The translations under genes and the position numbers were made by a program. A DNA stretch of 36,643 nucleotides, taken from positions 1 through 36,643 of IMG/VR virus record IMGVR_UViG_3300027805_000039; one strand, 5' to 3'. Below are positions 8,699-30,418 of this stretch, piece by piece. A model generated the notes under the pieces. It was not told where the DNA came from, searched no databases, and saw only the letters and a program-made list of their open reading frames with translations. The DNA comes from a virus. Within the stretch, counting starts at the first letter, position 1. The number at the start of each line of letters is the position of its first letter.

Positions 8699-8836
8699 CT
8701 TGCCAATTGACGACAGGGGGTGCCCCGTGTGCGATTGCCGCAGATGCCTCGGATAATTCCGCGTCGCTAATCACTTTTCCGACACGCCCGAATGTCAGCC
8801 AAGTGTGCCACTCTCTCCATCGGGGAGGTATCACCT

Positions 8837-9913
8837 GTGCGTATCGGCTCACTCTTTAGCGGCTATGGCGGCTTGGACATGGCCGTCAGCTCAGTCCTGG
8901 GCGGCCAGGTCGCGTGGCACGTCGAGTACGACAAGGCGCCCTCCCGCATCCTTGCCCACCACTACCCCGACGTACCCAATTACGGCGACGTGACGGCGGT
9001 GGACTTCACGACCATTGAGCCCGTCGACGTGCTGACAGGGGGCTACCCATGCCAGCCCTTTAGCCACGCCGGCATGCGGAAAGGCACCAATGATGAGCGA
9101 CACCTGTGGCCCCACGTTCTACGCGCCATTAGGGAAATGGGACCGCGACTCGCAATCTTGGAAAACGTCCGAGGCCACATCTCTCTGGGCTTTGACGTTG
9201 TCCTCTCTGACCTTGCCAGCGTGGGGTGGTCTGCAAGATGGGGAGTTGTTCGAGCATCCGACGCCGGAGCACCTCACCAACGCGCCCGCCTCTTCATCGT
9301 TGCCTACCCCGACGGGGGACGACGCCAACAACGTGACCAGGGCAAGCGGCACGTTCACGTCGCTGACTCGGACGGTCAACGGCTTTCTACCGACACCGAC
9401 GACGCAGGATGCAGCGAATACGGCGGGGCCGTCGCAGATGCGGCGCAACACTCTGCCGCTCAATGCAGCTGTCGCCCTACTGCCAACGCCAGCCGTGAAC
9501 GACATGGGCGAGGGCAAGACGCTGGAATGGTGGGACGAGTGGGCACCTCGTCAGATGTCATCGGACGGCAGGCCAGCGCCCCACGGGAGGTCGTTAGCGA
9601 TAGAGGCGCTCAGGGCTTCGATTGGGGCGAGTACGACCCCGCCATCGCCCGATGGGAGCAAGTCCTCGGACGACCCGCACCCGCACCTACTGAGCCTAGA
9701 GCCGATGGCGTACACCGCCTAAGCCCTCGATTTACCGAGTGGATGATGGGCCTGCCAGACGGGCATGTCACGGACCCCGCCATAGGCATCAGTCGCACAG
9801 ACCAACTCAAGGCGCTAGGCAACGGCGTCGTGCCGCAACAGGCAGCCCTAGCCCTTGACGTACTTCTCAAGGGCACGCCGTATGACCTCAGACAAGGACT
9901 CGCCACGGTCTAG
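8837..9913 (+). CDS. C5-cytosine DNA methyltransferase
   Basis: A 358-residue enzyme with motif I 'LFSGYGGLD' (residues 6-14), catalytic PCQPFS (71-76, Cys72), ENV (109-111), QRARLF (148-153) and a C-terminal 'KALGNGVVPQQ' motif X. GTG at 8837 is chosen because GGGGAGG lies at 8822-8828 and the product then begins exactly at motif I, as usual. The region between about residues 158 and 265, where the target-recognition domain should be, looks poor in this frame (Arg, Gln, His, Asp rich, no motifs), while the +1 frame of the same DNA looks protein-like (see 9090-9722). The 3' end overlaps a leftward ribbon-helix-helix gene by 66 bases. Probable role: modification against host restriction. Confidence 0.88.
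   Translation: MRIGSLFSGYGGLDMAVSSVLGGQVAWHVEYDKAPSRILAHHYPDVPNYGDVTAVDFTTIEPVDVLTGGYPCQPFSHAGMRKGTNDERHLWPHVLRAIREMGPRLAILENVRGHISLGFDVVLSDLASVGWSARWGVVRASDAGAPHQRARLFIVAYPDGGRRQQRDQGKRHVHVADSDGQRLSTDTDDAGCSEYGGAVADAAQHSAAQCSCRPTANASRERHGRGQDAGMVGRVGTSSDVIGRQASAPREVVSDRGAQGFDWGEYDPAIARWEQVLGRPAPAPTEPRADGVHRLSPRFTEWMMGLPDGHVTDPAIGISRTDQLKALGNGVVPQQAALALDVLLKGTPYDLRQGLATV
9090..9722 (+). CDS. Overlapping 210-codon frame inside the C5 methyltransferase gene, LPTP-repeat protein
   Basis: This frame lies wholly within the C5 methyltransferase gene, shifted by one base. It starts with two ATG codons after GGAAAGG (9078-9084, 5-base spacing) and encodes 210 residues. Early residues include 'KWDRDSQSWKTSEATSLWALTL'-type sequence and 'ELFEHPTPEHLT'; later it has three repeats of the form LPTPTxxD (SSSLPTPTGDD, FLPTPTTQD, LLPTPAVND), the last followed by 'GKTLEWWDEW'. 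From memory, such LPTP repeats occur in uncharacterised phage and actinobacterial proteins linked to C5 methyltransferases. Over 9300-9480 third-position GC, counted by eye for 60 codons, is about 77% in this frame and about 62% in the methyltransferase frame. It may be a separate gene, or the target-recognition part of the enzyme reached by frameshifting. Translation is unproven. Confidence 0.5.
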   Translation: MMSDTCGPTFYAPLGKWDRDSQSWKTSEATSLWALTLSSLTLPAWGGLQDGELFEHPTPEHLTNAPASSSLPTPTGDDANNVTRASGTFTSLTRTVNGFLPTPTTQDAANTAGPSQMRRNTLPLNAAVALLPTPAVNDMGEGKTLEWWDEWAPRQMSSDGRPAPHGRSLAIEALRASIGASTTPPSPDGSKSSDDPHPHLLSLEPMAYTA

Positions 9914-28916: not shown

Positions 28917-29027
28917 TCCACGCAGGCACAACGTGACGCCGGAACCCAACAGGGCTTGATCCACCCTGCCAGGGTCACCACCTCACGACCCCTTCCCTTA
29001 TCCATCCCACTCCCTTAGGAGAATGCT

Positions 29028-30335
29028 TTGTCCCTTCGTGACTCCCTTGTCGCGCAGCGTGACGCGAAGCTGGCTGAGGCCAAGGCCGTCGTTGAGGCGG
29101 CTGAGGCTGAGGCCCGTGACATCACTGACGACGAGCTGACAGTGGTGAAGGAGGCCCGTGAGGCCGCCGACGCCCTTGAGGTTCGCGTGTCGGAGATCGA
29201 CGCCCTCGCTGACGCCCAGTCCCGTTCCGTGGCCGCTGCCCCGATGACCGCATCCGTGCAGGTCACCTCGGAGCCGTCGACCTACCGCAAGAATGGCGAC
29301 ACGTCGTACTTCCGTGACCTCGCCGCCGCGCAGCTTCGTGGCGACCGTGAGGCCATGGACCGCCTTGTGCGCAATGACCGCGAGGTTCGCGCCATCAACA
29401 CCACGGACACCTCCGGTGGCGAGTTCGTGCCGCCGCTGTGGCTCGTGGACGAGTACGTGCGCCTGGCGCGTGCGTCCCGCGTTGCCGCTGACCTGCTCCC
29501 GAACCAGGCCCTTCCGGCTGGCACGGACAGCATCAGCCTGCCGAAGATCACCACGGGTACCGAGGTTGCGGCGCAGTCGTCGCAGAACAGCGGTTTCCAG
29601 AACACGGACATTGTGACCGCTTCGGCCACGTCCGCCGTTCACACCCTCGGCGGCATCCAGGTCATCAGCCTTCAGCTGCTTGAGCAGTCCCCCATTGCCG
29701 GTGGCATGGATCAGGTCATCATCAGCGACCTGGCCGCCGACTACGCCCGCGCCCTTGAGTCGTTCGTGCTCAACTCGGACGCGGCTGGCAAGCGTGGCCT
29801 GCTCAACGTCCCGTCCAAGATCGACGTGACTTACACCGACAGCACCCCCACGGTTGCTGAGATGTACCCGAAGATTGCTGACGCGATTCAGCAGATTCAC
29901 ACGCAGCGTTTCGCGGCGCCGTCTGCCATCGTGATGCACCCGCGCCGTTGGGCGTGGTTCCTCACGTCGCTCGATTCCAGCAACCGCCCGCTGATTGTTC
30001 CCGCCGCCAATGGCCGGTTCAACGGCGCTGGCACGCAGGACGGCGTTGCGGCGCAGGGCTTTGTCGGCACCATTCAGGGCATCGACGTGTACGTGTCGTC
30101 GCTCGTCCCGACAACTCTCGGCAGCGGCACCAACCAGGACCCCGTCCTGGTGTTCCGTCCCGAGGACAGCATCCTGTTCGAGGGTGCGCCTCGCGCGGAG
30201 GTCTTCCGCGAGACCTACGCGAACCAGGGCAGCGTCCTGGTCCGCATGTACAACTACGTGGCGCTTGCAACTGAGCGTTACAACAAGTCCGTGGCCGTCG
30301 TGAACGGCACCGGCTGCACCGCGCCTTCGTTCTAG
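29028..30335 (+). CDS. Major capsid protein (HK97 fold) with N-terminal delta domain
   Basis: A 435-residue protein using TTG at 29028 after TTAGGAGAA. Residues ~1-85 are a charged coiled coil ('VAQRDAKLAEAKAVVEAAEAEARDITDDELTVVKEAREAADALEVRV'), the delta domain that acts as scaffold; the capsid fold follows ('VPPLWLVDEYVRLARASRVAADLLPN', 'DISLPKI'-like strand, 'HTQRFAAPSAIVMHPRRWAWFLTSLDSSNRPLI'). Codon use is strongly biased (nearly no rare codons), as for a highly expressed protein, which also leaves a long open frame on the opposite strand. Preceded by ~110 bases without genes. Confidence 0.95.
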   Translation: MSLRDSLVAQRDAKLAEAKAVVEAAEAEARDITDDELTVVKEAREAADALEVRVSEIDALADAQSRSVAAAPMTASVQVTSEPSTYRKNGDTSYFRDLAAAQLRGDREAMDRLVRNDREVRAINTTDTSGGEFVPPLWLVDEYVRLARASRVAADLLPNQALPAGTDSISLPKITTGTEVAAQSSQNSGFQNTDIVTASATSAVHTLGGIQVISLQLLEQSPIAGGMDQVIISDLAADYARALESFVLNSDAAGKRGLLNVPSKIDVTYTDSTPTVAEMYPKIADAIQQIHTQRFAAPSAIVMHPRRWAWFLTSLDSSNRPLIVPAANGRFNGAGTQDGVAAQGFVGTIQGIDVYVSSLVPTTLGSGTNQDPVLVFRPEDSILFEGAPRAEVFRETYANQGSVLVRMYNYVALATERYNKSVAVVNGTGCTAPSF

Positions 30336-30350
30336 TAGGCGCCAGCGGAC

Positions 30351-30391
30351 TGCCCCCCGCCCGTGTACAACCCCCTCACGGGCGGGGGGCA
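30351..30391 (+). terminator. 15-bp hairpin after the capsid gene
   Basis: TGCCCCCCGCCCGTG (30351-30365) pairs exactly with CACGGGCGGGGGGCA (30377-30391), 15 bp, loop of 11. No T-run follows (CCACC), so it may act as a partial terminator, RNA end protector or stoichiometry regulator for the capsid transcript, a common place for such structure. Confidence 0.7.
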
Positions 30392-30418
30392 CCACCCCCG
30401 AACATGGGAGCACCCCAC

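Follow-up and report, generated by a model that had tools for sequence, protein, structure and literature searches.

The phage genome analyzed here (36,643 nucleotides, called the window below) carries a C5 cytosine methyltransferase gene, alpha, inside which a second ORF, beta, lies in the +1 frame. Comparison with related sequences gives good support for beta being a real gene nested in alpha, and the two genes quite probably encode a two-subunit C5 methyltransferase translated from one mRNA, in which the nested beta protein would supply target recognition in trans.

The window is a tailed-phage genome, with tail fibre, terminase, portal, and tape measure genes, and its close matches are actinobacteriophages. 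An N4/N6 DNA methyltransferase gene (PF01555, 7267-8598) is located directly upstream of the C5 methyltransferase gene. Elsewhere in the window, two long ORFs overlap on opposite strands (28998-30413 on the minus strand and 29028-30335 on the plus strand), and no PHROG match was obtained with the minus-strand ORF. Alpha matches PF00145 (6.6e-38) and phrog_363 (9e-74), resembles M.HhaI by sequence over residues 14-173, including motifs I-VIII, and carries the PCQ, ENV, QxRxR, IX, and X motifs, which places it among the C5 cytosine methyltransferases. The ORF list gives ATG 8792 as its start, but the real start is probably GTG 8837, judging from the GGGGAGG (8822-8828) present 8 bases upstream. 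The features of the locus are as follows (types of relatives are defined below):

8837-9913, plus strand: alpha, C5 cytosine methyltransferase ORF (PF00145, phrog_363, and M.HhaI-like match)
9047-9055, plus strand: alpha motif IV PCQ with the catalytic cysteine (read from the translation)
9078-9084, plus strand: Shine-Dalgarno-like GGAAAGG upstream of beta (read directly)
9090-9722, plus strand: beta, nested ORF of 210 amino acids, +1 relative to alpha (ORF translation, phrog_1008, selection)
9093-9299, plus strand: beta block L1 (SDTCGPT...SWKTSE...LTLPAWGGLQDGELFE; +1-frame HMM score against synonymous shuffles)
9161-9169, plus strand: alpha motif VI ENV (read directly)
9278-9295, plus strand: alpha motif VIII QRARLF (read directly)
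9300-9476, plus strand: beta LPTP repeats (LPTPTGDD at 9300 and LPTPTTQD at 9387; read directly)
9305-9619, plus strand: alpha linker, i.e., the alpha reading of the LPTP/L2 region (stop counts, identity test)
9477-9608, plus strand: beta block L2 (LLPTPAVNDMGEGKTLEWWDEWAPRQMSSDGRPAPHGRSLAIEA), putative core of the recognition domain (conservation, substitution pattern, AF2 model of a relative)
9620-9685, plus strand: conserved alpha segment DWGEYDPAIARWEQVLGRPAPA preceding motif IX (conserved in type C single-chain relatives)
9716-9763, plus strand: alpha motif IX RLSPRFTEWMMGLPDG (IX profile match in the alpha frame)
9809-9841, plus strand: alpha motif X KALGNGVVPQQ (X profile match in the alpha frame)

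Both ORFs were found where a first-pass annotation of this DNA had placed them (8792-9913 for alpha and 9090-9722, in the +1 frame, for beta), and a check of the sequence located ENV and QRARLF in alpha and the LPTP blocks in beta, as it had described. Beta begins with two adjacent ATGs (9090 and 9093), and the GGAAAGG reported as a possible ribosome-binding site indeed lies 5 bases ahead of the former and 8 ahead of the latter; the same bases double as codons for a conserved R-K-G of alpha, and the context is identical in related loci. The TAA stop of beta (9720-9722) is supplied by the CTA-AGC of alpha motif IX, and block L1 overlaps alpha motifs VI-VIII. The contrast in GC content at third codon positions over 9300-9640 was also reproduced (0.76 in beta vs. 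0.63 in alpha).

Homologs of beta occur in dozens of phage loci: the search for homologs of this frame, which the first-pass annotation had proposed as a check, gave matches in 34 phage records and 38 viral contigs. Beta belongs to no family in Pfam or NCBIfam, and the plasmid search performed with the beta of the window gave no match. Residues 2-142 match phrog_1008, which is annotated as a DNA methyltransferase (9e-15), and this match was obtained with all 44 of the betas aligned. The C-terminus of alpha matches the next part of the same profile, which was the first sign that the LPTP region and motifs IX-X are in frame with each other in some relatives.

The related loci were gathered using beta, a beta profile, and the catalytic domain, and the frames of the parts were expressed relative to the catalytic domain (N), based on profiles of N, L1, L2 (the LPTPAVND block), motif IX, and motif X. 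Four arrangements account for most of the 159 loci. Type A is that of the window, with L1 and L2 in the +1 frame and IX and X in frame 0. Type B consists of N alone, followed by an overlapping +1 ORF carrying L1, L2, IX, and X, as in vB_ArtM-ArV1 (067a/067b), Kristoff (77/76), and Dylan (7/6). In type C, one chain carries N, L2, IX, and X, and a short +1 ORF carries L1. In type D, a nested +1 ORF carries L1 and IX, while X is in alpha; it extends to genomes with a lower GC content, among them those of Paenibacillus phage Shelly, in which gp56 is annotated as 'g55 internal gene', and of a Leptospira plasmid. Four loci (L070, L090, L096, and L142) show other combinations of frames, with IX-X or L2 in the +2 frame, and are possibly further rearrangements or damaged genes. 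The L2 block is conserved across types A, B, and C; since it is common to a nested ORF, a separate ORF, and the catalytic chain itself, it can be taken to be part of the enzyme. The link between LPTP proteins and C5 methyltransferases, which had been put forward in the first-pass annotation, is correct; in both type B and type C, L2 is carried by a methyltransferase chain.

In most of the type C loci examined at the junction (L026, L027, L031, L034, L043, L074, L092, L094, and L176), the short +1 ORF ends at a TGA located 2 bases before the LLPTPAVND of the alpha frame, and the position of this TGA is strikingly constant. It may allow re-initiation or a frameshift, or may merely reflect the codons used for L/V-T.

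A tree of the catalytic domain (153 sequences) requires at least 23 changes among the four arrangements, the exact number being uncertain because loci having no L2 match but IX-X in alpha were scored as type A, some of which (e.g., WillSterrel) are perhaps type C. The well supported branches alone impose at least six changes for type A, seven for type B, and six for type C. The arrangement has likely changed repeatedly.

The substitution patterns show selection acting on both frames, with different stretches dominated by one or the other. In the L2 core, the differences among four sequences, those of the window and of the three relatives closest to it, number 8/7/78 on beta codon positions 1/2/3, which means that nearly all of them alter an alpha residue and spare the beta residue. 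Upstream of beta, in the catalytic part, the differences between the same four sequences number 47/29/149 on alpha positions 1/2/3, and the pattern is alpha-dominated again in segment 9620-9685. The dominant frame of selection along the gene is alpha, then beta, then alpha. When all the type A loci are taken together, the L2 core retains the beta-frame position pattern (0.33, 0.32, 0.50). Purifying selection confined to the alpha frame, which had been named as evidence against a nested gene, is not what the relatives show, since the beta frame dominates L2.

In the closest relatives, the differences in the L1 overlap are alpha-dominated. The constraint on the +1 frame in this part was assessed by keeping the alpha protein fixed, permuting synonymous codons, and scoring the +1 reading of motifs VI-VIII on the L1 profile. 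The window scored 108.7 bits, compared with 50.0 +- 9.5 after shuffling, and the score was far above the shuffles in most of the relatives of types A, B, and C as well. The median z of the excess was about 5 for type A as well as type B, and 4.7 for type C; in the case of type A, near relatives are included in the profile and shared descent could explain part of the excess, whereas types B and C are more distant, and the loci used here and in the stop counts below are related rather than independent. L1 is still constrained in type C although L2 has moved there into alpha, and it may therefore have a role other than that of carrying the recognition domain.

The start of beta is also favored by selection. 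At the two N/D positions able to create the nested ATG, 52 of 82 codons end in T, while the expectation based on the same genes is 23.4 (p 6e-11); this set includes loci without any L2 match, some of which are perhaps type C. The excess is absent in type B. When the amino acids of alpha were kept fixed, 2% of the synonymous permutations yielded a +1 ORF as long as that of the window.

The alpha frame across the LPTP region was then compared between types. In the 36 type A loci, it contains no stops vs. 69.3 expected, while the same frame contains 102 stops vs. 106.6 expected in type B and 21 vs. 22.3 in type C, where alpha does not need it to reach IX-X; these expectations were obtained by keeping the beta protein fixed and permuting its codons, one region being used for all types. 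Since stops are absent in type A and as frequent as expected in types B and C, selection has kept the alpha frame open in type A. The residues it encodes there are another matter: the pairwise identity of the alpha linker is 0.358 vs. 0.338 after permutation, and this excess is no larger than that seen in type C, which served as a non-coding control (0.496 vs. 0.465). The linker residues are thus not detectably selected, and in alpha a linker takes the place of the recognition domain of a normal enzyme. The description of the alpha frame as motif-poor from motif VIII to WGEYDPAIARWE (9620) holds in that no amino-acid constraint was detected, but it overlooked the fact that the frame is kept free of stops.

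In C5 methyltransferases, the target-recognition domain is located between motifs VIII and IX, and this is the position occupied by L2 in the single chain of type C. The AF2 model of one such chain (L092) shows an M.HhaI-like catalytic part, a disordered stretch that matches the alpha linker, and L2 as the ordered element of the variable region. When beta was modelled alone with AF2, the result was poor (pTM 0.32), and no relatives of beta were found among solved structures, either by sequence profile or by the fold of this low-confidence model, so the recognition role of beta rests on position and homology. A poor model of beta on its own might be what is expected of a partner-dependent subunit, and it lends no positive support to that role.

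Based on these data, ribosomes starting at about 8837 would produce alpha, consisting of motifs I-VIII, an unconstrained linker, IX, and X, while other ribosomes starting at ATG 9090 or 9093, behind GGAAAGG, would produce beta, consisting of L1, the LPTP repeats, and L2. Beta would bind alpha and provide the part that single-chain relatives have between VIII and IX, the only purpose of the alpha linker then being to let alpha reach IX and X. We infer the independent initiation of translation, the formation of the complex, its methylation activity, and the recognition role from these comparisons; that beta binds alpha and is required is suggested by the gene structure and by analogy with M.EcoHK31I.

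It is also conceivable, though unlikely, that beta is a real nested gene encoding a regulator, a chaperone, or an inhibitor, and that alpha recognizes its target via its own in-frame region. The conservation of L1 in type C, where alpha already has L2, would fit this explanation, as would the lack of any known recognition-domain fold in the prediction for beta alone; however, the amino-acid constraint on the alpha reading of this region does not exceed that of the non-coding control, and in types B and C, L2 belongs to the methyltransferase chain. The first-pass annotation had proposed either a true overlapping gene or an enzyme read through two frameshifts, i.e., a single chain in frames 2, 0, and 2, with the ribosome shifting by +1 past motif VIII and by -1 ahead of motif IX. 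The former is well supported by the start codon and N-terminus of beta, the open alpha frame, and the purifying selection on the LPTP frame. The latter is improbable: it does predict that the frame dominating selection should alternate along the gene, a pattern that fits either model, but a conserved beta start codon, a constrained +1 reading of L1 over motifs VI-VIII, upstream of the first shift, and a stop-free alpha frame between the shifts would all be superfluous, and types B and D have this region in overlapping ORFs that are separate.

GC-rich genes commonly have long +1 ORFs, and the longest +1 run in the permuted alpha genes averages 124 codons. A chance ORF, or indel errors mimicking two frames, is nevertheless very improbable here, given the protein-level selection in the beta frame and the presence of the layout (N in frame 0, LPTP in +1, IX-X in frame 0) in 36 distinct loci, which led us to reject sequencing error. 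The nested layout is also present in genomes with a lower GC content, where long ORFs are less expected, namely those of Shelly and a Leptospira plasmid. In the latter (Leptospira interrogans plasmid p2, positions 822-1637 of locus L200, 49% GC), an unannotated +1 ORF of 262 codons containing LPTP and motif-IX-like sequences covers nearly all of a methyltransferase gene encoding 271 amino acids.

Returning to the two-subunit enzyme with a nested recognition subunit, we lean slightly towards the idea that it represents a large and mostly unannotated class of C5 methyltransferases, in which the recognition subunit is overprinted, small changes of frame have time and again shifted the recognition block and IX-X between chains, and some alpha stretches are merely kept open. 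Gene callers usually retain one frame, and many public records show alpha only. In Rhodococcus phage ReT1v-2 (L005, 2001-2675), the beta frame is annotated as a hypothetical protein, the main part of alpha was missed, and only its C-terminus is labelled. In the prophage of E. coli ECCTRSRTH03 (L201, 480-1649), the annotation splits a relative of the type D gene of a Klebsiella phage into two incomplete pieces of a cytosine methyltransferase. If beta is required, alpha cloned alone would be inactive, and it would be wrong to credit alpha with the specificity. The family also constitutes a natural experiment in overlapping genes, where one block of DNA encodes either a recognition domain or a meaningless linker, depending on the frame, and where the relatives show different resolutions of the alpha/beta overlap.

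Among the known systems, the small subunit of M.EcoHK31I is reportedly encoded in another frame inside the gene of the large subunit. M.EcoHK31I (YGGCCR) is described as a two-polypeptide C5 methyltransferase known biochemically, in which motifs I-VIII and X are on the large subunit and motif IX is on the small one; the large subunit is credited with the recognition domain, and the small subunit is reported with motif IX only (PMC3404938, citing Lee et al., 1995). The window resembles M.EcoHK31I in that alpha has I-VIII and X and in that a second coding frame is present within the large subunit gene, but it differs in that motif IX is in alpha and the candidate recognition region (LPTP/L2) is in beta; the type D relatives have the M.EcoHK31I arrangement. 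Nested two-polypeptide C5 methyltransferases were already known in the form of M.EcoHK31I, which the first-pass annotation had not recognized.

M.AquI is described as a split C5 methyltransferase, with I-VIII on one polypeptide and the distal part of the variable region and IX-X on the other (PMC3404938). As far as this description goes, the window is similar in having the catalytic half and the recognition part on separate polypeptides, but IX-X is in alpha, with beta ending at 9722, where IX starts. The type B relatives, for example vB_ArtM-ArV1 067a/067b, are M.AquI-like, but with a long overlap. The gp55/gp56 pair of Shelly resembles the window in having a nested +1 methyltransferase gene within a C5 methyltransferase gene, although its motif IX profile match is in the nested ORF and its GC content is lower; no functional study of this pair was found in the literature. 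ShiLan gp65, an out-of-frame HNH nuclease present in a phage methylase gene as a homing insertion (PMC11855218), is likewise an out-of-frame protein hidden in such a gene, but beta is not an insertion and overlaps catalytic motifs. A homing insert was rejected as an explanation of beta, since no HNH domain was detected in it in Pfam, NCBIfam, or PHROG, and its block is the normal VIII-IX region in type C.

The literature searched, the coverage of which was limited, describes no phage C5 methyltransferase with a nested recognition subunit beyond M.EcoHK31I, and the breadth of the family and the shuffling of its parts between frames appear to be undescribed there as well. The enzyme of the window is of a known kind, that of M.EcoHK31I, from which it differs in having motif IX in alpha and the recognition candidate in the nested chain.
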